Position numbers and translations under genes: made by a program
In this document: in pieces, positions 12,202 to 50,925 of the stretch
Numbering within the stretch: the first letter of the stretch is position 1
Layout: every line of letters begins with the position of its first letter
Source of the DNA: Pseudotamlana agarivorans
GTDB lineage: Bacteria > Bacteroidota > Bacteroidia > Flavobacteriales > Flavobacteriaceae
Length of the DNA: 64,000 bases
Reading direction: 5' to 3'
NCBI RefSeq assembly: GCF_018860245.1
Contig: NZ_JAHKPD010000008.1
Location: forward strand, 191,821-255,820
The notes under the pieces: model-generated
Told to the model about the DNA's origin: nothing
Databases searched by the model: none
The model's input: the letters and a program-made list of their open reading frames with translations, nothing else

Positions 12202-13203
12202 TTACTTAATAATAGCCGGCTCTACCCATTTAAATTGGAATGAGTTTTCAGGAACCTTCATACGGTCTGATAAACGATACATTCTAGAAGGTAATTTCAT
12301 TAAATAATCTCTGGCTTTTTCAGCTTCATCATTTAATCCTGTGATTTTATCAATTTCCCAACGGTCAATTAATTTCTGAAGGATATCTACATAATCGGTA
12401 GCAGTATAAACGCCAATACGTTGTGCTGTATTTGAAAACTCTTCGAAAGCAGAACTAATTTTACCACCCGATTCTCTTAAAAAGTGAGCAGGCATGGTAA
12501 TTTTTTGTTTCATCATATAATGAAAAGCCATCATCATTTGGCTTGGATCTACTTTAAAAATACGATCTACAAAATCTGAATAGGCATGGTGGTGGCGCAT
12601 TTCATCGCCAGAAATGATTTTACACATTTTAGACAAACGCTTATTACCCATGTCTTTAGCTATTTTAGCCACACGATTATGAGAAATGTAGGTTGCTAAT
12701 TCTTGAAAACTGGTGTAAACAAAGTTTTTATAAGGATCTCTATCGGTCCCGATATCAAAACCATCGGCAATTAAATGCTGTGTTGTAATTTCAATTTGCT
12801 TCATATTTACCCTACCAGAAAGGTAAAGGTATTTGTTAAGCACATCGCCATGGCGGTTTTCTTCGGCAGTCCATTGGCGTACCCATTTACCCCAACCGTT
12901 TTCCTTACCGTCCATTTGGTCTACACCTTCAACATCCATTAACCAAGATTCGTAGGTAGGTAAAGCTTCTTCAGTAATCATATCACCTACTAAAACAACC
13001 CAAAAGTCATATGGTAATTCTTTAGCAAGCTCTCTAATTTCTTTAACTTCTTCGAAAAATTTCTCATCTGTCGTTTCAGAATTCGGTAAAAAATCTGTTG
13101 GTTGCCAAATGGAATCTATAGGAATTAAATACTTTTCCATTAGGGCGTCAACGTCTTTTTCCAAAAACTTCATGACTTCTAATCTTTTATTTTTCAATGA
13201 CAT
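12202..13203 (-). CDS. acyl-ACP desaturase (soluble di-iron, FA_desaturase_2)
   Basis: 333 aa, the plant stearoyl-ACP desaturase type. The di-iron ligand motifs are visible as EENRHGD (residues 114-120) and DEMRHHH (200-206), with the conserved FQELATYISH between them. It introduces a cis double bond into acyl chains on ACP, using ferredoxin and O2, and so controls membrane fluidity. The next upstream gene in the same direction is a PlsC-type acyltransferase, 11 bp away, which would put the fatty acids into phospholipid. Regiospecificity cannot be told. Confidence 0.92.
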   Translation of the reverse strand: MSLKNKRLEVMKFLEKDVDALMEKYLIPIDSIWQPTDFLPNSETTDEKFFEEVKEIRELAKELPYDFWVVLVGDMITEEALPTYESWLMDVEGVDQMDGKENGWGKWVRQWTAEENRHGDVLNKYLYLSGRVNMKQIEITTQHLIADGFDIGTDRDPYKNFVYTSFQELATYISHNRVAKIAKDMGNKRLSKMCKIISGDEMRHHHAYSDFVDRIFKVDPSQMMMAFHYMMKQKITMPAHFLRESGGKISSAFEEFSNTAQRIGVYTATDYVDILQKLIDRWEIDKITGLNDEAEKARDYLMKLPSRMYRLSDRMKVPENSFQFKWVEPAIIK

Positions 13204-13214
13204 GTGTTGTAATG

Positions 13215-13952
13215 TTATGGTTCGATACTATTTGTGATCGTTTGTTCTATACGATCAATAAGGTCTTGTTTGTTTACAAAGGTACTAACTTTTAAAGGCT
13301 TATGCACAGTAAAAGTGATATGTGTACCTAAACCCATTGGGAAATTGCCGTATTTTAACATTTTCCATGAATTATTTATAGTAATAGGTACAACCGTGGC
13401 CGATGGTATTTTTTTAAATAAAATCTCTAAACCTCTCGTTTGAAATGGTTTTGGCTCCCCGTTTTTACTCCGTGTACCTTCTGGAAATATAACCGCTGCT
13501 CGTTTGGTGTTTTCTATATATTCGCCAAATTTCATTAATGCCGGAAGCGATTGTCTAGGGTTTTTACGATCGATTAAAGCGCCTCCACCATGACGTAAAT
13601 TGTAAGATACGCTTGGTATGCCATGACCTAGTTCTATTTTGCTTATAAACTTAGGGTGGTGTTTACGCATGTACCAGGTAATGGGGTAGATGTCGTGTAA
13701 ACTTTGGTGGTTTGATACAATGATTAGGGGTTGATTGCTGTCTATATTATAAGGATTGCTAAAGGTAAAACGTGTGCCCAAAAGTTTTGCGCAACAGATT
13801 AATGAAAACTGTAGCCCATCAACCACTTTTTTGTGCACGTTGTAACCAAAAATATTAAAGCTTAACCACTGTAATACGTGAAATACGCATAGTGTAAGAA
13901 AGAATACTATAACATAAATGACGCTTAGCGGATATGATAGAATTTTTTGCAT
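13215..13952 (-). CDS. plsC: 1-acyl-sn-glycerol-3-phosphate acyltransferase (PlsC family)
   Basis: 245 aa, with an N-terminal membrane helix at about residues 10-30. The acyltransferase motifs are NHQSLHD (81-87, the catalytic HX4D), a GGGALIDR block near 122, FPEGTRS (156-162), and VVPITINNS. It transfers an acyl chain to lysophosphatidate in phosphatidate synthesis at the inner membrane. It is the first gene of a probable two-gene operon with the acyl-ACP desaturase. Several PlsC-like enzymes usually coexist, so acceptor preference is uncertain. Confidence 0.88.
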   Translation of the reverse strand: MQKILSYPLSVIYVIVFFLTLCVFHVLQWLSFNIFGYNVHKKVVDGLQFSLICCAKLLGTRFTFSNPYNIDSNQPLIIVSNHQSLHDIYPITWYMRKHHPKFISKIELGHGIPSVSYNLRHGGGALIDRKNPRQSLPALMKFGEYIENTKRAAVIFPEGTRSKNGEPKPFQTRGLEILFKKIPSATVVPITINNSWKMLKYGNFPMGLGTHITFTVHKPLKVSTFVNKQDLIDRIEQTITNSIEP

Positions 13953-47925: not shown

Positions 47926-47954
47926 CACGATTATAAAAATTGTTAAGCTATTTT

Positions 47955-49301
47955 ATGGAGTTTGTTATAAAGATTTCTCAGTTTCTACTAAGCCTTTCGT
48001 TACTGATTATTTTGCATGAATTAGGGCATTTTATCCCTGCAAAATTGTTTAAAACACGTGTAGAAAAATTCTATTTGTTTTTTGATGTGAAGTTTTCATT
48101 ATTCAAAAAGAAAATTGGAGAAACCGTTTACGGAATTGGATGGTTGCCATTGGGTGGTTATGTGAAAATATCGGGGATGATCGATGAAAGTATGGATACC
48201 GAGCAAATGGCTAAAGACCCTGAGCCTTGGGAATTCCGTTCTAAACCAGCTTGGCAGCGATTAATTATTATGCTTGGTGGGGTAACAGTGAATTTTTTAT
48301 TGGCCATTTTTATTTACATAGGGATGAGCTATTTTTATGGCGATACTTTTTTGCCAAATGAAAACATAAAAGATGGTCTTAATATTGAGAGTACAGTAGC
48401 TAATAAAGCAGGCCTGCACACGGGTGATAAAATTATAGCCGTAGATGGTGATAAGATTGAGAAATTCTCAGACATTCCTGAGAAAGTACTTTTTGGAAAA
48501 CAAATTGAAATAGAAAGAAATGGTGCGCGTTCTACTGTAGATATGCCACAAGATTTCTTGTCGCAATTAATGGATGCTAAAGAACACGGTTTTATTAGTT
48601 TAAGACAACCTTTTGTGGTGGTTCAGGTTCCAGATACCTCATATAATAAGGCTAGCGGTTTGCAAAAAGGTGACGTAATTGTTGCTATGAACGATTACAA
48701 TACCAAATATGTTGATCAAGTTACAAGGGCTCTTAATTCTTTAAAGGGTCAAGAGGTGACTGCTACAGTTAAAAGAGATAATGCTGAAGTTAATTTACCA
48801 CTAAAAATAAATGAAGATGGCAAATTAGGTATTGTTTATGCGCCTGTTTCAACATCTAAAACTTTAGAAGCATTAGGTTATTATCAATACGACGTCATTG
48901 ATTATGGGTTTTTTGAATCTTTTCCTGTTGGTGTTAAAAAGGCTAAAGATCGTATTGTGTCCTATTGGGATCAATTAGGCGCTATATTTTCACCAAGCAC
49001 AGGTGCTTATAAAGGTGTAGGGGGCTTTAAAGCGATTTACGACATTTTTCCAAGCACGTGGAGCTGGCAAGTTTTCTGGAGTATTACAGCCTTTCTATCG
49101 ATTATGTTAGGGGTTTTAAACTTATTACCTATTCCCGCCCTTGATGGTGGACACGTGATGTTTTTGTTATATGAAATGATATCTGGAAGAAAGCCTGGAG
49201 ATAAATTTATGGAGTATGCTCAAATGGTTGGATTCTTCCTTTTAATAGCATTAGTGCTCTTTGCAAACGGGAATGATATCTATAAAGCGATTTTTAATTA
49301 A
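47955..49301 (+). CDS. rseP: RIP metalloprotease RseP (site-2 protease)
   Basis: About 448 aa from the ATG at 47955 (MEFVIKISQFLLSLSLL); a TTG at 47940 would add five residues. Zinc motif HELGH (21-25) in the first TM helix, PLGGYVKISGM after it, two PDZ domains (about 130-300, with GLHTGDKIIAVDGD and GLQKGDVIVAMND), and the third metal ligand in PIPALDGGHVMF near the C-terminal TM helices. It cuts transmembrane anti-sigma factors and remnant signal peptides within the membrane. Confidence 0.95.
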   Translation: MEFVIKISQFLLSLSLLIILHELGHFIPAKLFKTRVEKFYLFFDVKFSLFKKKIGETVYGIGWLPLGGYVKISGMIDESMDTEQMAKDPEPWEFRSKPAWQRLIIMLGGVTVNFLLAIFIYIGMSYFYGDTFLPNENIKDGLNIESTVANKAGLHTGDKIIAVDGDKIEKFSDIPEKVLFGKQIEIERNGARSTVDMPQDFLSQLMDAKEHGFISLRQPFVVVQVPDTSYNKASGLQKGDVIVAMNDYNTKYVDQVTRALNSLKGQEVTATVKRDNAEVNLPLKINEDGKLGIVYAPVSTSKTLEALGYYQYDVIDYGFFESFPVGVKKAKDRIVSYWDQLGAIFSPSTGAYKGVGGFKAIYDIFPSTWSWQVFWSITAFLSIMLGVLNLLPIPALDGGHVMFLLYEMISGRKPGDKFMEYAQMVGFFLLIALVLFANGNDIYKAIFN

Positions 49302-49317
49302 TTTTTTTTAAAAATTG

Positions 49318-49348
49318 TTTGCAGAAACTAAAAAACCTTTTATATTTG
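49318..49348 (+). promoter_or_regulatory. promoter of the tRNA-Asn locus
   Basis: TTTG (49318-49321), 19 nt, TATATTTG (49341-49348): a perfect Bacteroidetes promoter. It is followed 25 nt later by the displaced 5' copy of the tRNA (49374), so it is evidently the original tRNA-Asn promoter, now driving a GIY-YIG gene plus the tRNA. Confidence 0.85.
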
Positions 49349-49387
49349 CACTCGCTAAGCAAAACAGCAACACTCCTTCTTAGCTCA

Positions 49388-49405
49388 TCCCGATAGCTAT
49401 CGGGA
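49388..49405. repeat. perfect 18-bp palindrome in the GIY-YIG element
   Basis: TCCCGATAGCTATCGGGA reads the same on both strands and directly abuts the orphan tRNA 5' copy. The same kind of palindrome is common in Bacteroidetes intergenic DNA. As RNA it would form a hairpin between the tRNA fragment and the GIY-YIG start. Confidence 0.8.
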
Positions 49406-49440
49406 GGTTAGATTAGGAAAAAGTTCTTTAAAATAATAAA

Positions 49441-49725
49441 ATGAATTTTGTTTACATATTGTATTCTATTTCAATTGACAAGTATTATGTTGGTGAAACT
49501 TTAGATATACAAGAAAGGATTAAACAACATAATTCAGGTTTTTATGATTCTGCTTATACAAAGCAAACATCCGATTGGGTTTTGTATTATTCAATTTCCT
49601 GTGAGGATAGAGTACTAGCAAGAAAGATTGAAACACATATAAAAAAAATGAAAAGCAAAACGTATATTCAGAACCTTAAAAAGTATTCTGAAATTACGGA
49701 AAAGCTTAAAAGTAAATATAATTAA
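49441..49725 (+). CDS. small GIY-YIG nuclease (URI-domain) protein
   Basis: 94 aa, a single GIY-YIG domain of the UvrC/Intron-type family: MNFVYILYS with the VYI half (residues 4-6), YYVGET with the YIG half (Tyr16-Gly18), catalytic Arg in IQERIKQHN (Arg26), and metal-binding Glu64 in ARKIETHIKKMKSK. All catalytic residues are present, so it should be active. Stand-alone proteins of this size are abundant in flavobacteria without assigned roles. Its position between a tRNA promoter and a tRNA, inside a 19-bp direct repeat, suggests a selfish, homing-type endonuclease co-transcribed with tRNA-Asn. Confidence 0.9.
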   Translation: MNFVYILYSISIDKYYVGETLDIQERIKQHNSGFYDSAYTKQTSDWVLYYSISCEDRVLARKIETHIKKMKSKTYIQNLKKYSEITEKLKSKYN

Positions 49726-49728
49726 CAC

Positions 49729-49802
49729 TCCTTCTTAGCTCAGTTGGTTAGAGCATCTGACTGTTAATCAGAGGGTCCTTGGTTCGAGCCCAAGAGAAGG
49801 AG
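49729..49802 (+). tRNA. tRNA-Asn (anticodon GTT)
   Basis: 74 nt. Acceptor TCCTTCT pairs with AGAAGGA, discriminator G, no encoded CCA. D-arm GCTCAGTTGGTTAGAGC, anticodon stem TCTGA/TCAGA with loop CTGTTAA giving anticodon GTT, variable loop GGGTC, T-arm CTTGG TTCGAGC CCAAG. All four stems pair perfectly. Its promoter now lies about 380 bp upstream across the GIY-YIG gene, so it should be cut from a longer transcript by RNase P. Confidence 0.97.
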
Positions 49803-49812
49803 CTCAGTGATA

Positions 49813-49846
49813 GAAAGCCTTTACAGAAATGTAGAGGCTTTTTTTA
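49813..49846 (+). terminator. terminator of the tRNA-Asn transcript
   Basis: AAAGCCTTTACA ... TGTAGAGGCTTTTTTT hairpin starting 11 nt after the tRNA. Confidence 0.85.
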
Positions 49847-49915
49847 TGGGCTTAACTTAGGTCTTTATTCACGTGGTATTCACGTATTATTTGGGGTCAT
49901 TCCTAAAAGTTGTGT

Positions 49916-50591
49916 TTATGCAAAAATTGTAGTTATTCTAAAAAGAAAGAATGCTACGTTTTTCACACCTCTAAATTGACTTCTGAAGGCATTAATTTTA
50001 GCATTAAAAGATTCTGCAGTCTCCATTACTAAATAGCTTTGAATTATATGTTTGACCTGTTAACCTAGCTTTTTTTATTTCTTCATTTTCTAAATCTATA
50101 GCATTCCACCTATGTTTTATTCTAATATCCTGTAAAGCCTCTAAAGCGAGTTTTTGTACATGAAATCGGTCTGTTACCTGTATGGCTTTGGGGAAACATT
50201 TTTTAGCTATGGTTTTCATTGAATTAGCCATATCTAGAGTGATTTCTTTAACCTTAGCCCTTTTCTTAGCTGATATTTTAAGAAGCTGTTCTATAATAGG
50301 TTCTACTTTTGTACCTGCAAATATGGCTACAATACTACCAGCTTTCCCCTTTGCTTTTTTATTGGTAATTATGGTGTAAAGTTCTCCTTTAGAAAGCGCT
50401 GTTTCATCAATAGAAAGATTAGGGCCGATATTCTCAGGAAAAACAAGCCATTGCTTAGCATGTGACTTTTGTTTCCAGTTTTTAAAATCACTGAGGTAGT
50501 CTTTATACTGGCGTTGTAGCTTTTTACCATCTACATTATAAAACCCAGCTATAGTGTGACAATCTGAAGTTTTAGTATCTACTAATTTCTT
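49916..50591 (-). pseudogene. ISL3-family (ISAon1) transposase ORF2, internally deleted
   Basis: The frame is open from about 50591, overlapping the end of ORF1 in another frame as usual for this family, and reads GFYNVDGKKLQRQYKDYL, LSIDETALSKGELYT (first catalytic Asp), KEITLDMANSM, and VTDRFHVQKLALEA (second catalytic Asp). After FSNGD it jumps to AESFNAKINAFRSQFRGV ... FRITTIFA with the third catalytic Glu, but in a different frame. By comparison with intact family members as I remember them, roughly 100 codons are missing. The element cannot move by itself. Confidence 0.82.
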
Positions 50592-50925
50592 TTAAAAAAG
50601 CAGCGAACTCGGTGGTCATTCGTGTTCCCTGTGCGACTAAATTCCAGTCTCTTTGTACAACTTGCTTTGTTTCTTTATCTAGCCATCTTCGACGCTTTAC
50701 ATGCAAATAGACAGTGTTTCCTCGTAAAGGAAAGTCTTGAATAGTGATTTGTTTATGAAAACCATGAGCGATAAGTGTACGCTCAGATTCTTCTTTGGGT
50801 GTCACATTGAGTTCTTCAAAATAAAGATGCATCACCTCTCCATTTTTTGTATGGTTAACTAAATCAAAATGATTAATTAAAAATTCTGGAAGAATAAGCT
50901 TGAGTAGTTCTATGTAATGATCCAA
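50572..50925 (-). CDS. ISAon1-family transposase N-terminal region protein (ORF1)
   Basis: 117 aa, TTG start (MDHYIELLKLILPEFLINHFDL). Basic C-terminal half with GNTVYLHVKRRRWLDKETKQVV and an ending FLKEISRY. It is the separate N-terminal DNA-binding ORF of ISAon1-like ISL3 elements, whose stop overlaps the transposase frame. It appears full length although ORF2 is deleted. Confidence 0.85.
   Translation of the reverse strand: MDHYIELLKLILPEFLINHFDLVNHTKNGEVMHLYFEELNVTPKEESERTLIAHGFHKQITIQDFPLRGNTVYLHVKRRRWLDKETKQVVQRDWNLVAQGTRMTTEFAAFLKEISRY

Follow-up and report, generated by a model that had tools for sequence, protein, structure and literature searches.

Large islands driven by an integrase are known to dock at tRNA genes, and in tRNA-integrating islands and ICEs a tyrosine integrase acts at tRNA 3′ ends while the target is restored by sequence carried on the element. 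In REP/RAYT systems, a Y1 (HUH) transposase lies beside REP palindromes. Mobile endonuclease ORFs of fungal mitochondria are described as replacing the 3′ end of a gene (Allomyces atp6; Glomus atp6, atp9, cox2 and nad3), with the element supplying a duplicated gene end, the native end left downstream and hybrid transcripts made (PMC3630166). In T-even phages, SegB is described as a free-standing GIY-YIG homing endonuclease, and break-driven recombination amplifies the tRNA together with segB (PMC13096335). In their accessible parts, neither of these two papers covers bacterial tRNA genes that are broken and rebuilt with a hairpin scar, which is the arrangement considered here.

Organization of the locus

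The window (that is, the whole 64,000-nucleotide stretch of Pseudotamlana agarivorans DNA that we analysed) holds a small GIY-YIG gene placed between the promoter and the body of a tRNA-Asn gene. Loci with the gene upstream of the tRNA, as here, are termed type U and those with the gene downstream type D, each prefixed by the target tRNA (for example, Asn-U). The features of the locus are as follows.

47940..49301, + strand: rseP-like site-2 protease gene (ORF; Pfam Peptidase_M50, E = 1.5e-51, plus PDZ domains)
49318..49348, + strand: putative tRNA-Asn promoter TTTG-N19-TATATTTG, which here precedes the GIY-YIG gene as well (TTTG, 49318-49321; N19; TATATTTG, 49341-49348; from the sequence)
49369..49387, + strand: left 19-bp copy AACACTCCTTCTTAGCTCA, on the native side (5 nt upstream of the tRNA plus tRNA nt 1-14)
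49388..49405, strand not applicable: perfect 18-bp palindrome TCCCGATAGCTATCGGGA, the boundary between native and element DNA (from the sequence)
49406..49412, + strand: GGTTAGA, a copy of tRNA-Asn nt 18-24 directly after the palindrome
49423..49434, + strand: GTTCTTTAAAAT, part of the GIY-YIG gene leader (GTTCTT in 15/16 Asn-U loci)
49441..49725, + strand: gene for a 94-aa single-domain GIY-YIG protein (ORF; Pfam PF01541, E = 3.2e-12)
49724..49742, + strand: right 19-bp copy AACACTCCTTCTTAGCTCA (exact repeat), the 5′ end of the working tRNA
49729..49803, + strand: intact tRNA-Asn(GTT) (ARAGORN; Rfam tRNA, 68.9 bits)
49814..49846, + strand: terminator-like hairpin with a T run, 3′ of the tRNA-Asn (read by eye)

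Direct reading confirmed the promoter, the 19-bp repeat, the 18-bp palindrome, the 94-aa GIY-YIG ORF, the intact tRNA-Asn and the 355-bp insert (49742-49387, holding the palindrome and the ORF) that the original prediction had described. That prediction had noted the palindrome but missed that it belongs to a pattern (that is, a hairpin at the native/element junction) and that tRNA nt 18-24 follow it. Given that GGTTAGA stands directly after the palindrome, the palindrome lies inside a longer tRNA fragment, where it replaces nt 15-17 of the D loop; in relatives the tRNA piece behind it is longer (nt 18-27 or more in 12/18 Asn-U loci).

We take TTTG-N19-TATATTTG to be a putative promoter of the Bacteroidetes type, and the same kind of sequence precedes the tRNA-Asn in congeners with an empty site. 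With the tRNA-Asn promoter on one side and the tRNA on the other, the GIY-YIG gene is probably co-transcribed with the tRNA and, judged from this position, probably expressed from the tRNA promoter; type D genes often start approximately 50 nt behind the tRNA. The GTTCTT element in the leader (49423-49434) resembles boxA antitermination signals. The conserved upstream neighbour of the tRNA-Asn is rseP, found by tblastn at 15/16 Asn-U loci. The anticodon-arm string CTGACTGTTAATCAGAG has a single exact match in the genome, at this tRNA-Asn, which is thus apparently the sole tRNA-Asn gene in an assembly of 25 contigs. Directly downstream of the locus lie broken pieces of an ISL3-family transposase (50004-50925, minus strand; PF01610, E = 4.3e-11; Zn_ribbon_ISL3, E = 3.7e-4, under its cut-off).

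The 94-aa protein has the domain and the catalytic Tyr, Arg and Glu by which the GIY-YIG superfamily is recognized, and Y5, Y16, G18, R26 and E64 are invariant in an alignment of 15 sequences. Its AlphaFold model (mean pLDDT 93.3, pTM 0.82) places two short C-terminal helices behind the catalytic core; a separate DNA-binding domain is not evident. How such a single-domain enzyme would find one tRNA gene is hard to explain, which counts against homing. The best profile matches among solved structures are UPF0213 proteins (1zg2, E = 1.6e-12; 1ywl, 4.3e-10), with SLX1 matching from 2.1e-5; relatedness to SLX1, a structure-specific nuclease, would fit recognition of a hairpin but does not show it. 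We found no plasmid or phage relative of the protein, and a scan of viral contigs with this single protein gave no relative. Matches in defence libraries were weak and at the domain level only (PADLOC, 1.3e-5 at best), as was a match of one of three proteins to a homing endonuclease in PHROGs (8.7e-4).

Empty sites in close relatives

In all five congeners (G001-G005), a query spanning window positions 49150-49900 matches with its positions 1-238 and 575/576 onward side by side, overlapping by 18-19 bp, and both flanks are adjacent in at least 15 of the 59 other genomes searched (congeners included, among the matches listed). From such adjacent and overlapping flanks, the insert is either a precise 355-bp addition here or a precise loss elsewhere. 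Upstream of the tRNA-Asn, CAGCAACAC occurs in G001, G002, G003 and G005 as it does on the left side of the insert, and G004 has CAGCACAC instead, one base less. The original prediction had named empty sites in relatives as a check, and in the genus of the window they are present in 5/5 congeners; filled and empty alleles at one site also occur among close relatives in a second genus (g142, discussed below).

An Asn-U locus of another genome (G239:C11, around 344896; L158, 1471-1635) has no ORF; its scar, palindrome and GTTCTTT leader abut an intact tRNA-Asn, and it looks like a footprint remaining after loss of the GIY-YIG gene. This arrangement contradicts the earlier proposal that loss of the element's expression would cost the host its tRNA. 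As G239 kept the scar after the ORF had gone, a clean empty site need not mean loss; it is possible, for its part, that loss mimics empty sites and that the gene is inherited vertically and frequently lost. GIY-YIG identity correlates with rseP identity across Asn-U loci (rho 0.52), with GIY-YIG being higher in 38/66 pairs (12 loci, frameshifted rows left out), a pattern that proves neither horizontal transfer of these elements nor its absence.

The genome of the window holds a further stretch (G000:C25, approximately 12981-13236; L041, 1498-1753) in which the first 21 and the last 21 bases of the element recur with order and orientation unchanged and span 139 bp in all; a terminator-like hairpin comes after them, and no tRNA is present. 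This hairpin has 13 nt in common with the tRNA-Asn terminator and carries the palindrome in its loop, and the stretch may be a decayed or MITE-like second copy of the element.

A tRNA-linked family across Bacteroidota

We searched the window protein in 249 genomes of its family (127 with a match) and in named genomes (18 loci), and a 33-row profile against 395 genomes of the phylum, 246 of which have a match at 1e-8, a count that includes ordinary GIY-YIG genes (for example, four matches in the genome of the window). The phylum sample comprises strong matches taken from the listing and is not a random draw. Among 173 loci, 155 have a tRNA no more than 500 bp from the gene (or array of genes), always on the same strand (155/155), and an exact piece of at least 10 nt of the same tRNA stands across the gene in 123/155, compared with none when each region was shuffled once; the phylum-wide subset gives 66/70. 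The tRNA link of relatives that the original prediction had proposed to look for is therefore found. As a control we took 33 other GIY-YIG loci, 29 from relatives (high-scoring for PF01541) and four from the genome of the window; only three are near a tRNA, and one of these three, beside a tRNA-Val (L314), may itself belong to the tRNA-linked family. Target tRNAs include Asn, Val, Pro, Asp, Arg, Ala, Phe, Gly, Met and Ser, with single cases of others. Targeting of the 5′ end, as originally suggested, holds for the window but not for the family as a whole, in which 98 of the 155 tRNA-linked genes lie downstream of the tRNA (type D) and 57 upstream (type U).

No tRNA was found within 500 bp at 18/173 loci; some of these end at contig borders (for example, L048 and L122), two (L050 and L086) show only broken tRNA pieces when read by eye, one (L092) has a tRNA approximately 1.5 kb off, and one (L047) was dropped by the script, as a second weak match enclosed its tRNA. 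No partial copy of 10 nt was found at 32 of the 155 tRNA-linked loci. Duplicates (L053, L059, L234, L239 and L246) were left out of the 173, and two loci of one genome with identical cores (L135 and L136) were both kept. The hairpin-bearing scars of three Val-D loci (L103, L118 and L126) retain enough of a tRNA fold for ARAGORN to call them tRNA-SeC or tRNA-Stop, which could mislead annotation, and a few of the nearest-tRNA calls are consequently scars. The other small stand-alone GIY-YIG genes in the genome of the window (L001, L002, L003 and L007) adjoin different palindromic intergenic repeats (by eye, of the CATTGCGAG/GCAATCTC type and of the CCCTGAACTCGTTTCAGGG type) and not tRNAs.

One copy of the gene is present at 121 of the 173 loci and two to seven at 52; at least one copy is intact at 163, with only stop-bearing copies at seven and only frameshifted copies at three (counted on raw matches before merging, 55 loci had several copies and the best copy was intact at 162). 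Among the 52 arrays, exactly one tRNA of the target kind lies within 500 bp in 40; three have two (L247, L266 and L283), six have none and three are unclear. In a protein tree of 102 rows, labels for tRNA kind and layout change 30 times, compared with a mean of 74 when shuffled (0/200 as low; 17 unknown rows share one label, seven labels were assigned manually and the tree omits frameshifted rows). Protein clade thus appears to predict the target tRNA, and vertical descent would also cluster the labels.

Breakpoints and the scar hairpin

Type U loci begin with the native 5′ part of the tRNA, followed by a hairpin, a short further tRNA piece and the GIY-YIG gene, and end with another 5′ part that is continuous with the remainder of the native tRNA. 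Type D loci begin with the working tRNA and a terminator, followed by the GIY-YIG gene; behind the gene come a tRNA piece, the hairpin and then a second 3′ half with a terminator. The duplicated part is the 5′ part in type U and the 3′ half, often with its terminator, in type D. Examples of the break are nt 14/18 for Asn-U, nt 22/27 for Arg(CCT)-U, nt 35/41 for Met-D (L058, L062 and L091; others elsewhere), nt 45/51 for Asn-D (L052, L056 and L087) and nt 56/62 for Phe-D (L064); several Val-D and Pro(GGG)-U loci have the hairpin in place of the anticodon arm. These breaks are located within or next to a loop, or else a stem-loop is replaced.

A GC-rich hairpin of the form [CT]CCG...CGG[GA] is present in the scar window of 121/173 loci and absent from it in 52, as against 13 in far flanks (approximately 500 bp off, a control lacking where the locus is too short) and three in ORFs; with at least two extra inner pairs, the numbers are 94, five and one. 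There are 88 distinct hairpins, and the inner pairs are complementary in 109/121 (pair 5), 96/121 (pair 6) and 79/118 (pair 7), shares that are somewhat high because the scan favours the best-paired candidate. As the inner pairs vary in sequence yet are mostly complementary, the hairpin looks kept as a structure. Folded as RNA, the window scar reaches -17.5 kcal/mol (z -2.67; 4/200 shuffles as good) and the scar of L131, terminator included, has a z of -6.25, whereas the last scar of G150 does not rise above its shuffles (z -1.16; 25/200 as good).

The 16-bp core of the palindrome occurs at five places in the 3.73-Mb genome of the window (reversed-pattern control, 0; independent-base estimate, 8e-5 copies) and is dispersed in 70/249 genomes of the family, with at most 53 copies each, including genomes without close GIY-YIG relatives. 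The exact palindrome is found in 16/22 genomes with a strong relative (at least 66 bits) compared with 54/227 others (Fisher p = 6.5e-6), counts that were entered by hand and include copies within the elements themselves. The genome with the most palindromes (G115, 53 copies) has only a weak GIY-YIG match (E 3.6e-4); with this, and with the element copies unsubtracted, we do not claim that the nuclease spreads the palindrome or that the palindrome marks a subfamily. Outer stems around 70 palindrome sites, which include a few family scars (L158, L177 and L178), average 3.7 compared with 2.7 for permuted flanks (maximum of 100 permutations, 3.0), but as a stem of at least 6 is present at just 10/70, location in hairpin loops is a tendency only and not a general property. 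In the genome of the window, one palindrome upstream of a dnaK-like gene (named by eye; L038, 1501-1516) lies in the loop of TTTTCGT/ACGAAAA, and Rfam gave no match on seven loci of this genome. The palindrome CCCGATAGCTATCGGG also stands inside RNase P RNA genes of two genomes, twice in one of them (L186, 201-323, G231:C4; L202, 201-216, G228:C1), and these genes still score 185-188 bits in Rfam.

Origin of the tRNA halves

Of nine genomes searched in the genus of G150 (g142; tRNA-Met, type D), two are filled, five read as empty and two were not read. Among the empty relatives, four of five (G276, G277, G278 and G282) have the T stem CTTGG/CCAAG and one (G280) has CCTGG/CCAGG, and three of five (G277, G280 and G282) have a terminator like the one that follows the final scar in the array of G150. 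G150 itself carries a half and a terminator of the native type after that scar, and its working tRNA has CATGG/CCATG and a different terminator; in G279, the same split is seen with other letters (working tRNA, CGAGG/CCTCG; scar, CATGG/CCATG). Compared with the empty relatives, the working tRNA of these two genomes is best read as a hybrid, in which the 3′ half would come from the element and the native half would survive in the scar. G150 has a second Met-D stretch 7 kb downstream of its five-copy array (L091, 10445-11038), with one broken and one intact copy of the gene and lastly a native-type tRNA half.

In 21 type D loci with a readable native half, 13 show no mismatch to the working half and eight show one to three (two unclear loci, L071 and L098, were set aside and 17 in which no native half was found were left uncounted). 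A different working half as a general protection is therefore rejected; it is seen in G150 and G279. In the window, the working half equals the scar half, and across Asn-U loci nt 1-14 are the same in scar and working copy in 15/16 cases despite five acceptor-stem variants between hosts, so that the duplicated part in type U follows the host. The Asn-U duplication also extends upstream of the tRNA (mean match 3.1 nt, compared with 1.1 when permuted; 0/2000). Such a pattern would be as in target duplication, or as left after gene conversion.

Proposed model and alternative explanations

Taken together, the comparisons show an element at a fixed point inside a tRNA gene, a scar that usually bears a hairpin, an adjoining working tRNA, close relatives with an empty site and, in one genus, a hybrid tRNA. 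The breaking and rebuilding of a tRNA gene is well supported by sequence comparison as a principle of the family, and with it the original proposals that the element enters a tRNA gene, restores the tRNA and sits between the tRNA promoter and the tRNA. We consider it probable that these are minimal selfish elements of the homing-endonuclease type that break and restore tRNA genes. In this model, the approximately 90-aa GIY-YIG protein would cut an uninterrupted tRNA gene in or beside a loop, and repair would copy the element in from the filled allele. The hairpin would stop the scar from serving as a target (and might also be recognized by the nuclease), and the restored tRNA would render the insertion nearly harmless; arrays of two to seven copies would probably arise by re-cutting or by unequal recombination between scars. 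A difficulty is that the intact working tRNA ought to be cut as well, which counts against homing outside G150 and G279. Also weighing against the model are the absence of plasmid, phage or viral-contig relatives in the searches with the window protein, the correlation of GIY-YIG with rseP identity at Asn-U loci, the dispersal of the palindrome in genomes that have no close relative of the gene, and the loci with no tRNA within 500 bp (18/173), no partial copy (32/155) or no such hairpin (52/173). A bolder version, which we regard as possible but tentative, holds that elements of approximately 300-400 bp throughout the phylum encode an SLX1-like nuclease that recognizes tRNA-loop hairpins, marks the broken target with a hairpin and moves through the exchange of halves and terminators, making mosaic tRNA genes.

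Several other explanations can be envisioned. The gene may be an old, vertically inherited companion of tRNA genes that was inserted long ago at several loci, has often been lost (through recombination between short direct repeats, or internal deletion), is retained by the host because of some function and is immobile today. Asn-U members share the rseP-tRNA-Asn locus (15/16), their GIY-YIG and rseP identities correlate (rho 0.52), an intact copy is kept at 163/173 loci and an exact loss between the 19-bp repeats is plausible, all of which would be expected of such a gene. We nevertheless judge it unlikely, given the empty site in 5/5 congeners, the spread of one family over many tRNA kinds and two layouts, the tandem copies, the repeats that take in host-specific bases upstream of the tRNA, and the tRNA half and terminator of G150 and G279 that are unlike the native ones.

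It is also conceivable that the family raises the dose of a tRNA, or that its nuclease multiplies the tRNA as a counter-defence against tRNA-cutting attackers, in that SegB, likewise a GIY-YIG enzyme, is described as driving amplification of the tRNA-segB unit in phage T6 (PMC13096335). Tandem arrays occur here too, three of them (L247, L266 and L283) with two tRNAs of the target kind. However, 40 of the 52 arrays have exactly one such tRNA within 500 bp and six have none, and the unit that is multiplied is the nuclease gene with a broken tRNA piece, which leaves this explanation very improbable. Least credible of all is that a small GIY-YIG gene and a dispersed REP-like palindrome both landed at a tRNA gene by coincidence, with a simple target duplication. 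Although the palindrome core is indeed dispersed (70/249 family genomes, up to 53 copies) and its outer stems are longer than permuted flanks predict, this arrangement is repeated at Asn-U loci in many genera, where the palindrome occupies an unchanged place in the tRNA, which already contradicts a coincidence, and other scars bear other hairpins at the equivalent place.

Implications

If the favoured model is true, these elements live in tRNA genes in a manner distinct from that of integrase-driven islands and on a far smaller scale: a nuclease gene for approximately 90 aa breaks an essential tRNA gene and brings the missing part of its target with it. How a selfish gene is able to occupy a single-copy essential gene would then have an explanation that can be tested, and the model would account for the broken tRNA copies and the clustered small GIY-YIG genes of Bacteroidota. 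It would also provide a route for the exchange of tRNA halves and terminators, and a compact nuclease with an apparent preference for individual tRNA genes (a putative activity). Under the bolder hairpin-nuclease version, essential tRNA genes of Bacteroidota would be mosaics of native and element DNA. The occurrence of such genes beside many tRNA genes of the phylum suggests a kind of minimal selfish DNA that is apparently undescribed; among the open PMC matches listed (preprints and most subscription journals lie outside this set), no paper on tRNA-linked GIY-YIG genes in Bacteroidota was found.

Comparison with known systems

With tRNA-integrating islands and ICEs, the family shares the restoration of the target gene by sequence on the element, but here there is no integrase, insertion is in or near loops and both halves of the tRNA are used; the insert of the window, at 355 bp with one 94-aa GIY-YIG ORF on the 5′ side, is accordingly not an island of this class. 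Nor is it a group I or tRNA intron, as the tRNA is contiguous and Rfam finds only a tRNA in 48900-50200. As in REP/RAYT systems, a small nuclease gene stands beside palindromes that also occur dispersed; the protein, however, is a GIY-YIG enzyme and not a Y1 transposase, which excludes that class, and the gene and the palindrome are linked through tRNA scars. The best structural profile relatives are UPF0213 and SLX1, and other GIY-YIG genes of related genomes (kinds pooled) are mostly not tRNA-linked (3/33).

SegB resembles the family in having a GIY-YIG gene that adjoins tRNA genes and in forming tandem tRNA-nuclease units, a likeness at the level of the GIY-YIG domain. According to the accessible text, SegB sits beside phage tRNA genes and amplifies them, whereas here the tRNA is broken and rebuilt and it is mainly scars that are multiplied; with the intact tRNA not multiplied alongside the nuclease gene in 40/52 arrays, the family does not belong to a SegB-type amplifier class.

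The nearest printed parallel that we found, judged from the accessible parts of the paper, is the fungal mitochondrial ORF that carries a replacement gene end (PMC3630166). Both systems have an endonuclease gene in a host gene (of the GIY-YIG type in Glomus atp9) together with a duplicated gene end, and here, too, the element supplies a gene end and the native end lies on the far side (partial copies at 123/155 loci, with the origin of the halves read in g142). The supplied end is unlike the native end in G150 and G279 but not in the window, and 15/16 Asn-U scars are identical to the working copy. As far as the fungal ORFs are described there, they differ in occupying mitochondrial protein genes, whereas the present elements occupy bacterial tRNA genes, of which either half may be duplicated, and combine an enzyme of approximately 80-94 aa with a boundary hairpin and tandem arrays.
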